Positions 2,341 through 8,992 of a stretch of 31,810 nucleotides of DNA are shown here, in pieces. Numbering within the stretch: the stretch's first letter is position 1; each line of letters begins with the position of its first letter. Both the position numbers and the translations under genes were made by a program. The notes beneath the pieces are model-generated. The model did not search any database, was not told the origin of the DNA, and saw nothing but the letters and a program-made list of their open reading frames with translations. Source of the stretch: a virus; IMG/VR virus record IMGVR_UViG_3300025151_000173, positions 1 to 31,810 of that record, one strand, 5' to 3'.

Positions 2341-3192
2341 ATGAACCCAGAATTTCCAGTTTATATAATCAGCAAAGGCAGAGCGGACACGCGATACACG
2401 TCCAAAGCTCTAGAAGATATTGGAGTCCCTTATCGTATCGTTATTGAGCCGCAAGAGTTCGACGAATACTCGGCAGTTATTGATAAAGAAAAGATTCTCC
2501 AGCTTCCGTTCAGTAATCTTGGTCAGGGTTCAATACCTGCCCGGAATTGGTGCTGGGAACATTCGATAAGCGAGGGGCACGAATGGCATTGGATATTGGA
2601 TGACAACATTAAGTCCTTTCTCCGTTTTACAAATGACCAACGCTACACCGTCACAAATGGCACCATATTTAAATGTGCGGAAGATTTTGTACAACGATAC
2701 GAAAACATTGCCTTGTCCGGTTTCCAATATCGTTTCTTTTGTGGTGGAGCAACTCAGCCCTACAAACTGAATACGAGGATTTATTCTTGCTTGTTGATTA
2801 ACAACAGCACACCCCACCGATGGCGTGGTCGTTACAATGAAGATACCGACTTATCGTTAAGAGTCTTAAAGGACGGATATTGCACCGTGTTATTTTATGC
2901 GTTCCTTTGTTCAAAAATGGAAACGATGACATGCAAAGGCGGCAACACGGAAGAATTATATGCGGAAGATATTGACGGAAGACTAAAAATGGCTGAGAGT
3001 CTGCAAGCACAACATCCGGACGTGGCTACAGTCGTTTGGAAATGGGATCGCTGGCATCATGAGGTAGACTACCGACCTTTCAAAAAGAATAAATTAATAA
3101 TGAAGCAAGGATTGAGGATTCCCAATCGCGTCAATAATTACGGAATGTTTCTTAAAGAACTAACCAACCAAAAAAAAGAAAATGAAAAATAA
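2341..3192 (+). CDS. TET-associated-type (TAGT) glycosyltransferase, copy 2
   Basis: 283 aa and closer to the family consensus than copy 1: PVYIISKGRADT (6-17), VPYRIVIEPQEFDEY (29-43), SIPARNW, HWILDDNIKSF (83-93, DDN 87-89), RWRGRYNEDTDLSLRVLKDG (160-179), KGGNTEELY (199-207). NEDTDLSLR is the usual second acidic motif of GT-A-like enzymes; copy 1 has GSDTDYSIQ here and has lost RWRGRYNE. Predicted to transfer a sugar to a modified DNA base, possibly with a different acceptor or as a second sugar from copy 1. It starts 1 nt after copy 1 and overlaps the membrane-protein start by 11 nt. Confidence 0.78.
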   Translation: MNPEFPVYIISKGRADTRYTSKALEDIGVPYRIVIEPQEFDEYSAVIDKEKILQLPFSNLGQGSIPARNWCWEHSISEGHEWHWILDDNIKSFLRFTNDQRYTVTNGTIFKCAEDFVQRYENIALSGFQYRFFCGGATQPYKLNTRIYSCLLINNSTPHRWRGRYNEDTDLSLRVLKDGYCTVLFYAFLCSKMETMTCKGGNTEELYAEDIDGRLKMAESLQAQHPDVATVVWKWDRWHHEVDYRPFKKNKLIMKQGLRIPNRVNNYGMFLKELTNQKKENEK

Positions 3193-4119: not shown

Positions 4120-4986
4120 ATGAAATTCATAGATTATACAAAAGCCGAGGGGGTTAATTGTTCCAGCTTTGGAGGGATTGATCCAGACCGTGATGGATGT
4201 CCATTAATTTGGAGAGCAAACGAACTTGGAGAGGGAGAGCCTAGAAAAGATTCTCCAGCTTTAGGATTCGGAAGAGCTTTCCATTCCGCTGTATTAACTC
4301 CGGACGAGTTTGTGGACGAGTTTGTCGCATTAGATGAAGGCGTCCAACACAAGCTATATACGGACGCACTAGAAAGCGGTTCGAAAGCTAAGAAGTTTTC
4401 CCGCTCGTTGTCTACATATAAAGATTGGATGGCTGAACAAAAGCAACTTGGTCGGACTGTTCTTGATCTAGATTCTCTAGAAAGAATAGAAGACATGAAG
4501 GACGCTTTGATGAGAAACAAACAAATGGCAGATTATTTAAATGATCCCAGCCTCCAAACGGAACTAAGTTTGTTCGCATCGTTAACAGACCACAGGGGCA
4601 ACCATGTTGCTTGTAAGGGACGACTGGACGCATTATTGCCGGGTGGTGCTTGCGTTGATCTGAAAACCGTGGCAAGTGCTTCTCCTATTTATTTGGGGAA
4701 CTTCGTGCCGCGTTTCAAGAATCACATCCAAGCGGCGTTCTATCTTGATCTGTTAGAAGCAAACGGGCATGAAGTCGACCATTTTGCCTTTGCTTTTATC
4801 GACAAGAGAAAGCCGCATCCGGTAACGCTTTGGAAAGTGCCGGACGTTATGATTGATCTAGGTCGGCAAGAATATAAAACCTTCCTCGGTTGGATATTTG
4901 ACGGACGTAAAACAGGCAAATGGCCGGGGCACTCTCCAATGATTGAGTTTCCGGCATGGTTTGAAAAGATGCTGGAGGAAGTATGA
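4120..4986 (+). CDS. PD-(D/E)XK exonuclease, RecE/exodeoxyribonuclease VIII-like (DUF3799 type)
   Basis: 288 aa. The nuclease motifs appear in order: GRAFH (51-55), E148 in QTELSLFA, KGRLDAL (166-172, D170), CVDLKTV (178-184, D180 and K182) and QAAFY (204-208). These are the signatures of the RecB/RecE-like PD-(D/E)XK fold, which resects double-stranded ends for recombination. Length fits phage single-domain members. No annealase (RecT, Erf, Beta) is recognisable nearby, so the SSB-like protein or the host may supply that step. Next gene overlaps by ATGA. Confidence 0.8.
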   Translation: MKFIDYTKAEGVNCSSFGGIDPDRDGCPLIWRANELGEGEPRKDSPALGFGRAFHSAVLTPDEFVDEFVALDEGVQHKLYTDALESGSKAKKFSRSLSTYKDWMAEQKQLGRTVLDLDSLERIEDMKDALMRNKQMADYLNDPSLQTELSLFASLTDHRGNHVACKGRLDALLPGGACVDLKTVASASPIYLGNFVPRFKNHIQAAFYLDLLEANGHEVDHFAFAFIDKRKPHPVTLWKVPDVMIDLGRQEYKTFLGWIFDGRKTGKWPGHSPMIEFPAWFEKMLEEV

Positions 4987-5312
4987 GTCCGAGTGAACAT
5001 ATATCCAACACCGATTATCATAATTCGTTGAAAAAGGAAATGAGTAAACAGAAGATAAAAAACGGGATTAGCGACATGCAGGAGGCGAGTTGTGAAGGAG
5101 CGTCTACCTTTTACGGCGCAGGTGGTCGCGTCTTGCTTAAAAAAATGGCGGCATATTTTGAATGTTACGGGGCTGGAAGACACTCTGGAGACATTACTGC
5201 CGCTGGATTTGTTCATCGTTTGCTGGACGGTGAGTTGGATATTGTGAGAGTGAGCGATGGGAAGGGCTTTTGGCACGAGGAGGGATATGATGCTCGAACT
5301 GAAGAGAATTAA
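4983..5312 (+). CDS. Small phage protein, paralogue of the 1095-1319 product
   Basis: 109 aa, starting ATGA on the exonuclease stop. Residues 50-100 (VLLKKMAAYFE, then GFVHRLLDGELDIV, then GKGFWHEEG) match the 74-aa protein at 1095-1319. The N-terminal 45 residues are polar and unrelated to it. Function unknown. Ten bases after its FW, near the end, is GGAGGGATATGATG, a possible coupled start for a short frame over the structured RNA, paralleling the gene order after the other copy. Confidence 0.65.
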   Translation: MSPSEHISNTDYHNSLKKEMSKQKIKNGISDMQEASCEGASTFYGAGGRVLLKKMAAYFECYGAGRHSGDITAAGFVHRLLDGELDIVRVSDGKGFWHEEGYDARTEEN

Positions 5313-5316
5313 AAAA

Positions 5317-5413
5317 GACGTGACTGGGAGACTAGAGTCGGAAGAGAACTCCGAACTTGGTGGAGATTTTTGTTCATTTTTCTCCACCGGTAGTGAACAC
5401 TCCCAGCCGCGTC
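5317..5413 (+). ncRNA. Structured RNA element, copy 1 of a tandem pair
   Basis: Outer stem P1 pairs 5317-5330 (GACGTGACTGGGAG) with 5400-5413 (CTCCCAGCCGCGTC): 13 of 14 pairs counting one wobble. Inside is P2, TCGGA (5338-5342) with TCCGA (5350-5354) around loop AGAGAAC, and P3, GGTGGAGA (5359-5366) with TCTCCACC (5381-5388) around a 14-nt loop containing GTTCATT. TGAACA (5394-5399) abuts the 3' side of P1. Together this is a three-way junction. GTTCA can pair with either the P2 loop (GAAC) or TGAAC, so a switch is possible. Seen from sequence only; no RNA family recognised. Confidence 0.6.
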
Positions 5414-5422
5414 CAAAACCTT

Positions 5423-5494
5423 TGCAGGGACTAGAGTCGGAAGAGAACTCCGAACAGCGGTTTATTTGTTGGCCAGTTCATTGAACACCCTGCA
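5423..5494 (+). ncRNA. Structured RNA element, copy 2 of a tandem pair
   Basis: The 26-nt core at 5430-5455 is identical to copy 1 (5331-5356). The outer stem has a different sequence but still pairs: TGCAGGG (5423-5429) with CCCTGCA (5488-5494). GTTCATT (5476-5482) and TGAACA (5482-5487) are kept. P3 is reduced to a weak GGTT/GGCC helix. It ends 12 nt before the start of the next gene (5507), so it probably lies in that gene's 5' leader. Changed outer pairs with an unchanged core argue for selection on RNA structure. Confidence 0.62.
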
Positions 5495-5506
5495 TCCTAA
5501 AAAAAA

Positions 5507-5995
5507 ATGAAACCTTACAAAATAGAACTAGACGAAAAAGAAATCCAGCTTGCTAAAAAACAAGCTTTGGCAACTGCAAGCGATTCAAGACAACGCGGAT
5601 TGATTGATCGTAAATTTGCCCGCGAAACAGGAGCAGAGATTGACGAGCTTGGCGCAGGTGGTGAAATTGCGTTTTGTAAATTCTTCCGAATTCCATACAC
5701 CGATCTGCGATTTGGATCATGCAGGGGTTGGGATGTTAATCTCCCTGGCATTGGAACTTTTGACGTGAAGACGACAAAGAAGCCGGGGAATAATATATCT
5801 ATAGCGGCACGATGTGAACACAAAAAGGACAGGGCGGATTGGATCGCAGGAATGGCAAGAGAAGGCAAAAGCTGGACATTTTATTATTACGGCATGCTGG
5901 AAAGCCAGCATTGTTTTTCCGATAAGTATACGAAGGAGGGCAGATTTGGTGAGTCTTTTTTTTCTGTTCCTGTTTCTGAGCTTTTTTTAGTGTGA
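5507..5995 (+). CDS. PD-(D/E)XK nuclease-like phage protein
   Basis: 162 aa. The core is ELGAGGEIAFCKFF (E53), GWDVNLPGIGTFDVKTTKK (D86-V-K88) and a later strand (SWTFYYYGML). The E .. D-x-K pattern on adjacent strands is the restriction-endonuclease-like fold. It could be an endonuclease or Holliday-junction-type enzyme serving recombination or packaging; the substrate cannot be read. It follows the tandem RNA element by 12 nt on an A-rich leader. The stop overlaps the next start (GTGA). Confidence 0.6.
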   Translation: MKPYKIELDEKEIQLAKKQALATASDSRQRGLIDRKFARETGAEIDELGAGGEIAFCKFFRIPYTDLRFGSCRGWDVNLPGIGTFDVKTTKKPGNNISIAARCEHKKDRADWIAGMAREGKSWTFYYYGMLESQHCFSDKYTKEGRFGESFFSVPVSELFLV

Positions 5996-6560: not shown

Positions 6561-6645
6561 TGTAGGTATAAGGGAAAAAGAATCTGAAAAAAAAAGCATT
6601 GTTTCGCTTGATTCATCCTATATATGTGATCTATTATCACTATCA
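6561..6645 (+). promoter_or_regulatory. Promoter/operator repeat, copy 1
   Basis: Shares a long block with 8148-8235 and 8630-8730: GAATCTGAAAAAAAA, GCATTGTTT, then TTGATT (6608-6613), an 18-nt spacer and TATTAT (6632-6637). The inverted repeat GTGAT-N5-ATCAC (6626-6640) covers the -10. The A-tract upstream could act as an UP element. This copy lacks the small GGGA..TCCC leader hairpin of the other two. Before it, AAGCTT-GGA-AAGCTT (from 6547) is a short hairpin. Expected to drive the gene at 6671. Confidence 0.62.
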
Positions 6646-6670
6646 ACAACAACAAATCTTAAATCTAAAA

Positions 6671-6970
6671 ATGAAAATAAAAACCAACACCAACAGCCAC
6701 CTTGAAGGTCGTTTTTCTAACCCAAGCAATCTTAACCCTAATAAAGGTAAAGTTTTTGCACATGTTGTCAGAATTCATCCTGACGGTTCTGAATCTTTTT
6801 GCCCAAGCTTTAAGGCTAAATATTACGCGAATAGGAAAAATGCAGAGAAGGCAGTAAACCAGTATCTGAAAAAAGAACAAGAAGTCATTAAAAGAAACGC
6901 ATTTCGAAACTCATCGGCAACTGAATTTTTCCAAGCTCAAGGTTTAAATCTGATTAGCACCAAATACTGA
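6671..6970 (+). CDS. Hypothetical early cassette protein
   Basis: 99 aa from ATG 6671. An in-frame ATG at 6599 lies inside the promoter repeat and is rejected. The protein (GKVFAHVVRIHPDGSESFCPSFKAKYYANRKNAEKAVNQYLKKEQEVIKRNAFRNS) looks like a small basic alpha/beta domain. Not recognised. Its 3' flank carries the first tRNA T-arm-like hairpin. Confidence 0.55.
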   Translation: MKIKTNTNSHLEGRFSNPSNLNPNKGKVFAHVVRIHPDGSESFCPSFKAKYYANRKNAEKAVNQYLKKEQEVIKRNAFRNSSATEFFQAQGLNLISTKY

Positions 6971-6981
6971 ATCGAAACGCC

Positions 6982-6998
6982 TCGGGTTCGATCCCCGA
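6982..6998 (+). repeat. tRNA T-arm-like intergenic hairpin 1
   Basis: Stem TCGGG (6982-6986) with CCCGA (6994-6998) and 7-nt loop TTCGATC, exactly the geometry and consensus of a tRNA T-arm. It starts 11 nt after the preceding stop. No cloverleaf or acceptor partner exists, because the upstream DNA is coding. Confidence 0.75.
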
Positions 6999-7029
6999 CG
7001 CACTAGAAAACAAAAACAAAAAAAGAAAA

Positions 7030-7281
7030 ATGAAATTAAAAGACATATACAATCTAACCGAAAAAGAGAGCCAGCTTTTTCAATCAATACTAACTGGCAT
7101 GGATTACCCTGGCATGGGATGGCTTCACGCATTAGCGGAAGAATCTTTATCAACCAACGCTGTTCTTGGAAGCTTAATTAAAAAGGGGCTAGTTACTAGC
7201 CAACGCGAAAAAGAGCCGGGTTTACCGGAAGTTTTTTGGATTGAACTGACTACAGAAGGAAAAGAATTCCTTAATTCTTAA
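7030..7281 (+). CDS. Small winged-helix DNA-binding protein
   Basis: 83 aa. LTEKESQLFQSILTGMDYPGMGWLHALAEESLSTNAVLGSLIKKGLVTSQRE .. FWIELTTEGKEFL matches the helix-helix-turn-helix-wing pattern of MarR/PadR-like domains, with NAVLGSLIKKGLV as recognition helix and start of the wing. Likely a phage transcription regulator; the GTGAT-N5-ATCAC sites in the promoter repeats are possible targets. A-rich leader AAAAAAAGAAAA before ATG. T-arm-like hairpins lie on both sides. Confidence 0.6.
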   Translation: MKLKDIYNLTEKESQLFQSILTGMDYPGMGWLHALAEESLSTNAVLGSLIKKGLVTSQREKEPGLPEVFWIELTTEGKEFLNS

Positions 7282-7332: not shown

Positions 7333-7827
7333 ATGAAAAACACTGCACAAAACGCCACTTACACTTATAAAGCGGTAAAAGAATTTATTGAGCATATTAC
7401 AGAAGTTGATGCCGATGGGATTTTTGATTTTGCAATCACGCATCTCCAATGGGATGACAACGGCAACCTTTGGTTTCATATCAGAGGTCAAAGTAACTCG
7501 GATGGGTCCGTATATAATGACGCCAATCTTTATCAAGCCAAGCCTTCAGGGGTTATTAATTCTTACGAGCCGAAAGATGATAGTTATTGGAACACTGATT
7601 GGGCTTGTGACCCTATTGACTTTTTGGAAAATGCCAAGCTTAGAAACCGTTACTTCGAGAAATCAAAGCCATGCGCCCGGTTCAATAAAGAATGTGGGGA
7701 ATTGACCAGCCGCTACATTGATCCGCTTTGGGGCAAGCCTGTTAGCTTCAGAAACATTTGGGACAAAAACGAGGACAACCCGTTTCTCTGCACCATAGCA
7801 GGGGACATTGGACAATATTGCGAATAA
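7333..7827 (+). CDS. Hypothetical early cassette protein
   Basis: 164 aa, acidic and rich in aromatic residues (FDFAITHLQWDDNGNLWFHIRGQSNSDGSVYNDANLYQ .. YWNTDWACDPIDFLENAKLRNRYF). No domain recognised. Starts after the same A-rich leader as its neighbours and sits between T-arm-like hairpins 2 and 3. Confidence 0.55.
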   Translation: MKNTAQNATYTYKAVKEFIEHITEVDADGIFDFAITHLQWDDNGNLWFHIRGQSNSDGSVYNDANLYQAKPSGVINSYEPKDDSYWNTDWACDPIDFLENAKLRNRYFEKSKPCARFNKECGELTSRYIDPLWGKPVSFRNIWDKNEDNPFLCTIAGDIGQYCE

Positions 7828-7837
7828 TCAAAACGCC

Positions 7838-7854
7838 TCGGGTTCGATCCCCGG
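7838..7854 (+). repeat. tRNA T-arm-like intergenic hairpin 3
   Basis: Stem TCGGG (7838-7842) with CCCGG (7850-7854), closing with a T-G wobble where hairpin 1 has T-A; loop TTCGATC. Flanks (CGCC before, CGCACTAGAAAAC after) are the same as hairpin 1. Starts 10 nt after the preceding stop. Confidence 0.75.
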
Positions 7855-7885
7855 CGCACTAGAAAACAAAACCGAAAAAAGAAAA

Positions 7886-8140
7886 ATGAGCATAAACAAA
7901 AAAATCCTATATAAGATAGCCGAGGAAACAGAATACTTTTATGATCGGTGGCAAGATGAACAAGGACTTGAAGATTTTTCCGATTACGTCAAAAGCATGG
8001 AAAAAATAATCAACGCGAAAGAACAAGAGTTCTTGGGACTTACTCAAAATCCTTTTAAGGTTTCTTACATTGATTCAAAAACGCAAAAAACGGTTGTTTT
8101 AAAACCGGACGCAACTGGAATCAGCGTTATTGTGAAATAG
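7886..8140 (+). CDS. Hypothetical early cassette protein
   Basis: 84 aa from ATG 7886, which follows GAAAAAAGAAAA. The longer frame from 7808 runs through the hairpin and overlaps the previous gene, so it is rejected. Helical N-terminus (KKILYKIAEETEYFYDRWQDEQGLEDFSDYVKSMEKIINAKEQEFLGL) and a short beta C-terminus. Not recognised. Confidence 0.55.
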   Translation: MSINKKILYKIAEETEYFYDRWQDEQGLEDFSDYVKSMEKIINAKEQEFLGLTQNPFKVSYIDSKTQKTVVLKPDATGISVIVK

Positions 8141-8147
8141 AAAAAAC

Positions 8148-8256
8148 AAAAAAAGAATCTGAAAAAAAAGCATTGTTTTAGTTGATTAGTTCCATATATG
8201 TGATTTAATATCACTATCAACGGGAGCAATCCCAAAACTAAAAACAAAAAAAGAAA
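8148..8256 (+). promoter_or_regulatory. Promoter/operator repeat, copy 2, with GNRA-loop leader hairpin
   Basis: TTGATT (8182-8187), 18-nt spacer, TAATAT (8206-8211), with GTGAT-N5-ATCAC (8200-8214) over the -10. The leader then has GGGA-GCAA-TCCC (8222-8233), a 4-bp stem with a GNRA tetraloop, then an A-rich ribosome-loading tract. Bases between the dyad arms and in the spacer have drifted while the arms are kept. Confidence 0.62.
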
Positions 8257-8607
8257 ATGACAACACTTAAAAAAATCAACGACGAATTGGCAAACGCAGG
8301 ACTGGAATTAATTAAATGGGATAATTATTTTACTTTCCAAATTTTGGATATTGATCTAGTTCCACTACCCAGCTTTGTCAAAACTGCCGGACATTTGGGC
8401 AACGGAGATCAATTGTTGGATTCTATTGCAGTCTGTAAGCTCAACCACTTGAGCTTTGAGAAATGGATAGGAGAGGCAATTATTTACCTACAAAGATTTT
8501 TGGAAAGATATGATTGGGCGCATCCTAAAGGCGACTATCACCCAGAGGAATTCGATTCATGGATGGATAATATTGATCGGTCTTTTGAATTAAATAACTC
8601 TAAATAA
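8257..8607 (+). CDS. Hypothetical early cassette protein
   Basis: 116 aa, acidic (LKKINDELANAGLELIKWDNYFTFQILDIDLVPLPSF .. SFEKWIGEAIIYLQRFLERYDWAHPKGDYHPEEFDSWMDNIDRSFEL). No family recognised. It has promoter repeats on both sides, so it forms a one-gene transcription unit unless there is read-through. Confidence 0.55.
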   Translation: MTTLKKINDELANAGLELIKWDNYFTFQILDIDLVPLPSFVKTAGHLGNGDQLLDSIAVCKLNHLSFEKWIGEAIIYLQRFLERYDWAHPKGDYHPEEFDSWMDNIDRSFELNNSK

Positions 8608-8629: not shown

Positions 8630-8755
8630 CCCTTGTAGGTATAAAGAAAAAAGAATCTGAAAAAAAAGCATTGTTTCACTTGATTCATCCTATAAATGTG
8701 ATCTATTATCACTATCAACGGGAGCGATCCCAAAACTAAAAACAAAAAAAGAAAA
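8630..8755 (+). promoter_or_regulatory. Promoter/operator repeat, copy 3, with GNRA-loop leader hairpin
   Basis: Begins with TGTAGGTATAA as copy 1 does; TTGATT (8680-8685), 18-nt spacer, TATTAT (8704-8709), GTGAT-N5-ATCAC (8698-8712), then GGGA-GCGA-TCCC in the leader. Copy 2 has GCAA in that loop: both are GNRA. A short AACATC-TG-GATGTT hairpin (about 8611-8624) lies between the previous stop and the repeat and may weakly terminate. Confidence 0.62.
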
Positions 8756-8992
8756 ATGCAATATTCAAGAAAAACAAAAAAACCAACACCGGGACACTCT
8801 GGCAACCGAAAAAACGTTATTGTGGAATGGCGTTACAGTGAAGCCGAGATTGCTGAACGGAAAGCTGATGGAATAGACTCCAATCTCGATTGGCAACCGG
8901 TTTCCGGTGTGCGATTAACTCAAAAACAGGCAACCTATTGCCGCCTTAAGTTTGAGAAATTAGGATTTTTAACAAGGGAAAGGAATATATAA
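8756..8992 (+). CDS. Hypothetical early cassette protein
   Basis: 78 aa, basic (QYSRKTKKPTPGHSGNRKNVIVEWRYSEAEIAERKADGIDSNLDWQPVSGVRLTQKQATYCRLKFEKLGFL). The last part could form a helix-turn-helix-like pair, but no family is recognised. Driven by promoter repeat 3 and followed by T-arm-like hairpin 4. Confidence 0.5.
   Translation: MQYSRKTKKPTPGHSGNRKNVIVEWRYSEAEIAERKADGIDSNLDWQPVSGVRLTQKQATYCRLKFEKLGFLTRERNI

Follow-up and report, generated by a model that had tools for sequence, protein, structure and literature searches.

A 31.8-kb virus record (IMGVR_UViG_3300025151_000173), analysed over all of its 31,810 nucleotides and referred to here as the window, contains a folded RNA in two tandem copies. 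This RNA lies on the sense strand of phage transcription units and is strongly selected for both its structure and its core sequence. It is almost certainly a genuine class of phage RNA, and it belongs to the phage's own polycistronic mRNA. The novelty that we claim, and consider near certain, is that of the RNA family; its mechanism may turn out to be a familiar one. Covariation and a number of carriers as high as described below, without an entry in Rfam, show that the catalogue of natural RNAs is incomplete. Lying next to phage genes for RNA polymerase, DNA polymerase, recombination and nucleases, the RNA is a candidate site for the control of infection in abundant, uncultured phages. For any of the mechanisms considered (a new ribozyme class, antiterminator, phage switch or anti-host RNA), a transcript of ~75 nt suffices for first tests.

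Two tandem copies and their surroundings

The repeat GACTAGAGTCGGAAGAGAACTCCGAAC is found in identical form at 5330-5356 and 5429-5455, with a spacing of 99 nt. The earlier note had reported exact copies at this spacing; their length is 27 nt rather than the 26 nt given there. Even when 3 mismatches are allowed, the repeat is confined to these two sites in the window (0 of 100 shuffles). Each repeat is part of a three-way-junction RNA on the plus strand, copy 1 at 5324-5406 and copy 2 at 5423-5494. As had been noticed before, the P1 flanks differ between the copies and yet pair in both (CTGGGAG/CTCCCAG in copy 1, TGCAGGG/CCCTGCA in copy 2). The fold z-scores are -3.2 for copy 1, -2.0 for copy 2 and -3.6 for the entire region.

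In copy 1, the 5′ strand of P1 (5324-5330) pairs with the 3′ strand (5400-5406) in the predicted fold. In the fold of 5310-5520 the helix is lengthened to about 13 bp by an outer GACGTG/CGCGTC pairing, for which the segment GACGTGA (5317-5323) pairs with 5407-5413 around a bulge. P1 is followed by the J1/2 core ACTAGAG (5331-5337; AMUAGAG in the family), of which A5334 forms a cross-junction pair with U5394, and by the P2 hairpin TCGGA-AGAGAAC-TCCGA (5338-5354), whose assignment is based on covariation and on its fixed length. J2/3 is AC (5355-5356). The P3 hairpin (5359-5388) consists of the strands GGTGGAGA and TCTCCACC with a 14-nt loop according to the fold, and J3/1 (5389-5399) has the conserved TGAACA (5394-5399) at its 3′ end.

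Copy 2 has the same order of parts. The P1 strands (5423-5429 and 5488-5494) are assigned from the fold, the J1/2 core ACTAGAG occupies 5430-5436 with A5433 pairing to U5482, and the P2 hairpin (5437-5453), supported by the fold, is that of copy 1 by repeat identity. P3 (5456-5471) is a weak predicted hairpin, AGCGG/TTGTT plus a G, with the loop TTTAT, and the conserved TGAACA of J3/1 is at 5482-5487. The next ATG (5507) follows 12 nt after P1.

The three neighbouring genes described here are on the plus strand. Two genes upstream of the RNA, an exonuclease VIII/RecE-like PD-(D/E)XK gene (4120-4986) was assigned by PHROG 412 (E=1.7e-47) and Pfam DUF3799. It is followed by a gene for 109 residues (4983-5312), the stop codon of which lies 11 nt 5′ of P1 of copy 1. 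The gene downstream of the RNA (5507-5995) codes for 162 residues, and its GWDVN..GTFDVKTT pattern is PD-(D/E)XK-like by eye only; the PHROG search gave no match, and Pfam gave only DUF5843 below the cutoff. Thus, the position 12 nt before a gene stands as had been described, but the identity of that gene as a nuclease is unproven.

Some further repeats were observed in the window. A 142-nt repeat occurs in three copies (6564-6705, 8138-8279 and 8636-8777), which are 62-84% identical to the reference copy and all lie close to where a small gene starts; it may be a promoter or regulatory unit of the phage. A 71-nt stretch is present in two copies with 90% identity just 5′ of start codons (6970-7040 and 7826-7896) and includes CGCCTCGGGTTCGATCCCCGACGC, which resembles a tRNA T-arm and 3′ end; ARAGORN found no tRNA. 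The adjacent genes 1545-2339 and 2341-3192 have similar N-termini (PIYIPSKSR.. and PVYIISKGR..) and are probably paralogues of one enzyme.

A covarying family in viral contigs

Relatives were sought by sequence-pattern scans of IMG/VR. A pattern derived from the core detected five other viral contigs, each with a P1 of its own. With a looser pattern of the ACUAGAG form, 54 contigs were found, and P1 and P2 are formed in all of them except one (L026). The AAUAGAG form gave at least 120 matches; about two of these (L181, L202) resemble chance on inspection, and the remaining ones are paired or were recovered by a covariance model. As the two patterns are mutually exclusive, the RNA occurs in at least 170 viral contigs, near-duplicates included. 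The ACUAGAG form found in the window is the rarer of the two.

Most genomes have a single RNA locus. Side-by-side tandem copies exist at nine sampled loci (the window, L004, L024, L038, L097, L111, L125, L170 and L172), and two loci (L035, L042) are near-identical to L024. In L004, the core of the upstream tandem copy (1574-1650) is degenerate (AATACCAG, with AGG instead of AC) while the helices are intact; this second copy may have decayed or become specialised.

The consensus reads P1 - AMUAGAG - P2 (5 bp) - RGAGANY - P2′ - AC - P3 (variable) - short linker - UGAACA - P1′. The RNA has a size of ~65-90 nt and forms a three-way junction with junction lengths of about 7/2/9. P1 is variable, mostly 7-15 bp long and contiguous up to 15 bp, and the RGAGANY loop of P2 is GNRA-like. 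About 19 unpaired bases are near-invariant in the family, an invariance that for the core letters is in part imposed by the search patterns.

The helices are supported by covariation. Among 33 members, 92.4% of the cells are paired, as compared to 45% after a slide by one column, and 18 of 18 pairs have changed on both sides. For 85 diverse members the values are 89.0% versus 42-47%, with 582 double-changed cells, a number that none of 500 shuffles reaches. A set of 102 members aligned by the covariance model concurs, this alignment being biased toward the model. All 18-19 helix pairs vary on both sides and P1, P2 and P3 all covary heavily, so that the tandem structured RNA proposed in the earlier note is borne out above shuffled and slid controls and the lack of covariation that would have weakened it was not encountered. 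The model necessarily matches its own training members, but copies outside the training set support it independently (for example, 64 bits for copy 2 of L024 and 44 bits for copy 2 of L025). A blind mutual-information scan over 133 columns, with 40 nt of flank on each side, ranked the inner P1 pairs and P2 pairs at the top, followed by P3. No further helix was detected within the element or the 40 nt on either side, a scan in which a pseudoknot is detectable only in fixed register. With the same restriction to fixed-register pseudoknots, a pseudoknot, or the ring that one closes in an exonuclease-resistant RNA (xrRNA), was rejected. As P2 contains 31 G-U cells and no A-C cell, the functional strand is the RNA on this strand.

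The two window copies are 99 nt apart and share one open frame (ORF 5257-5484), as would befit a small-protein repeat with the peptide LESEENSE. We give this explanation practically no weight. The lengths of the variable inserts are spread evenly modulo 3 (29, 29 and 27 for remainders 0, 1 and 2), the two sides of P2 change jointly, and most members are located outside ORFs. What is kept is the pairing and not the reading frame; compensatory changes and frame-breaking insert lengths refute the protein repeat.

The length of P2 is strictly fixed. Scans that doubled as chance background gave no members among 5 matches for a 4-bp P2 and none among 13 for a 6-bp P2, compared to the at least 120 matches of the 5-bp pattern. 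Since the 4-bp and 6-bp matches never form P1 and P2, P2 has exactly 5 bp, and this suggests that its GNRA-like loop may dock at a fixed distance. A pair across the junction was also resolved. In two copies outside the pattern (copy 2 of L038 and copy 2 of G017), position 4 of J1/2 is changed from A to G together with a C for the first U of UGAACA. In a follow-up scan with G4 fixed and U or C left free, C was found in six of six distinct true members (L038 included), as opposed to 10 T and 4 C among the non-members. It follows that A4 pairs with U1 (as A-U or G-C), so that the pair closes the internal loop AMU/GAACA. At the base of P2, copies that only the model recovered (L060, L194, L170) have G.A, A.G or A-U, a hint of a further, non-canonical pair there.

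Two mutually exclusive switch states had been proposed as well, with GTTC pairing either to the P2 loop or to TGAAC. Both pairings can indeed be drawn in both window copies, but the family is at chance: of 85 members, 22 have a 4-nt complement of the loop, where 24.7 are expected, and 8 have a sequence complementary to TGAACA, where 6.2 are expected. The proposal is therefore abandoned. Among the functions suggested in the earlier note (riboswitch, thermometer, protein-binding leader or ribozyme), the evidence weakens the thermometer and a P1-switching riboswitch.

The RNA is absent from the bacterial genomes sampled (0 of 398 Pseudomonadota, 0 of 296 Actinomycetota). Two pattern matches in bacterial genomes were rejected by the covariance model, and one probe run against plasmids gave no match. 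A single annotated record was found to have the RNA, the uncultured fosmid phage AP013544, directly upstream of a T7-like RNA polymerase gene. Further searches of phage collections gave no convincing match, and in Pelagibacter and Roseobacter relatives the RNA is missing from the RNA polymerase region examined. No Rfam 15 family (4227 models, gathering cutoff) matched the window, nor the RNA at any of 40 member loci, in agreement with the earlier note, which could match it to no known class; at relaxed E-value, the window gave only chance lncRNA matches. A literature search covering sources other than most subscription journals and bioRxiv returned no description of the RNA.

Position in phage genomes

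The RNA is strictly co-directional with its neighbours. The nearest upstream gene is on the same strand in 84 cases and on the opposite strand in one, and for the downstream gene the ratio is 65:5. Many copies end 3-16 nt 5′ of a start codon. Genes 3′ of the RNA include those for single-subunit RNA polymerases, family A DNA polymerase, PD-(D/E)XK/DUF2800 nucleases and Holliday-junction resolvases, and also for excisionase-like HTH proteins, a methyltransferase, ParB, GMP reductase/IMPDH and the portal protein. On the 5′ side, genes for SSB, helicases, exonuclease VIII, clamp loader and capsid protein occur. In one clade of RNA polymerases, whose proteins are as little as 59% identical, the RNA is kept 3-16 nt upstream, while P1 and P3 are wholly different. 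As the RNA strictly follows the direction of its neighbours and is retained beside one start codon, it probably acts in cis on the mRNA that contains it.

Elsewhere the RNA lies between an SSB-like gene and a terminator, adjoins a tRNA, or is in frame within an ORF. Terminator-like hairpins follow the RNA at 15 of 121 loci, as compared to 1-7 at control positions. In L104, the copy at 5477-5549 abuts an apparent downstream tRNA gene with anticodon GTT. In a phage group represented by L010 (3132-4085), L020, L027 and L031, the RNA is in frame inside a gene for ~320-350 residues and encodes a would-be linker between two conserved parts. Genomes related to this group (G010, G011, G017) have a second copy that is more divergent and about 19-24 kb distant, and two of these second copies precede an intrinsic terminator.

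A Shine-Dalgarno site precedes 5 of the 39 start codons adjacent to the RNA. In AP013544.1 (L265), a complete T7-like phage genome, a Shine-Dalgarno-like motif is present at 2 of 39 annotated genes, which suggests that its host uses non-SD initiation. That the RNA replaces the Shine-Dalgarno site was rejected, the adjacent starts being no different from other starts (p=0.32). A restriction to phages of non-SD hosts was likewise not confirmed when member contigs were compared with chance-match contigs (p=0.17).

Possible mechanisms and comparison with known RNAs

Self-cleavage appears to be the most likely mechanism, with a probability of roughly one in three. The RNA would cut itself within the conserved junction, and the cut would sever the message between cistrons, as RNase III sites do in T7. 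Tentatively, we may thus be dealing with a new class of self-cleaving ribozymes with the AMU/GAACA internal loop as active site, spread across uncultured dsDNA phages and located between cistrons, especially before the RNA polymerase gene. Self-cleavage is favoured because of the compact and rigid fold, the invariant internal loop and the variety of sites. Cleavage or processing is preferred to a switching P1, as P1 is contiguous for up to 15 bp, a Shine-Dalgarno site is rarely there to be sequestered, and the sites are varied (start codons, after stop codons and before terminators, tRNA, ORF) with unrelated neighbours. Several points disfavour self-cleavage. Cutting would break the message in the four phages with in-frame copies, about 19 near-invariant unpaired bases are many for a small ribozyme, the tandem copies at nine loci are not obviously required, and no Rfam ribozyme matches.

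We rank three other explanations behind self-cleavage. It is possible, though rather unlikely, that the nascent RNA, in the manner of a put element, binds the host transcription machinery and alters its pausing or its termination within operons of early and middle genes. HK022 putL and putR likewise are ~70-nt phage cis elements (PMC9378689), and this explanation would fit a phage-specific RNA of about 70 nt with one or two loci per genome, lying in operons of early and middle function and followed by an excess of terminator-like hairpins. However, this excess is modest, the fold differs from the two stem-loops of put, and the RNA is often the last element 5′ of a start codon and is not known to lie near a promoter. 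Slightly less credible is a leader switch, an RNA bound by a ligand or protein that would control whether the next gene is translated or transcribed, with tandem pairs steepening the response. The end of P1 lies within the ribosome footprint at many loci, and the near-invariant unpaired bases together with the fixed-length P2 resemble a binding pocket. On the other hand, a common expression platform was not found, terminator-like hairpins and Shine-Dalgarno sites each being present at a minority of loci. A P1 of up to 15 bp is difficult to switch, the downstream genes are unrelated, the RNA also occurs within ORFs and before terminators, and a metabolite riboswitch would not usually be absent, as the RNA is, from the bacteria searched. 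The length of P1, the lack of a common platform, the unrelated neighbours and the absence from these bacteria also weaken a riboswitch that works by switching P1. Least probable of the three is an RNA which is processed from the operon transcript and acts in trans on a host component, as decoy or anti-defence, with tandem copies raising the dose. The core is invariant while the helices change freely, the RNA is phage-specific, and it has usually one locus per genome at a position tied to no one gene; but co-direction with the neighbours and retention just 5′ of the RNA polymerase gene indicate action in cis, and a terminator follows at few loci.

Among known systems, the antiterminator RNAs HK022 putL and putR, which suppress pausing and termination, are also phage RNAs of ~70 nt that work within phage operon transcripts, and they are present as two copies per genome. 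They consist of two stem-loops downstream of early promoters (PMC9378689), whereas the phage RNA is a three-way junction that usually flanks a gene closely. A put fold, which requires two stem-loops, was rejected since covariation and mutual information show the members to form a three-way junction. The glutamine riboswitch (glnA motif) is another structured RNA of marine phage genomes, but it has a different core, and Rfam reports no match to the RNA in the window or the member loci searched. The hammerhead ribozyme is a small three-way junction with a conserved core and variable stems, as is the phage RNA. It was rejected because the core AMUAGAG / AC / UGAACA, with its junctions of different length, is devoid of the CUGANGA and GAAA strands and the Rfam models are silent. 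The RNase III processing sites of T7 differ in being long duplexes that serve a host enzyme, whereas the phage RNA has a P1 of mostly 7-15 bp and an invariant junction core, but they share its location: they sit between early cistrons, and one of them precedes the RNA polymerase gene.
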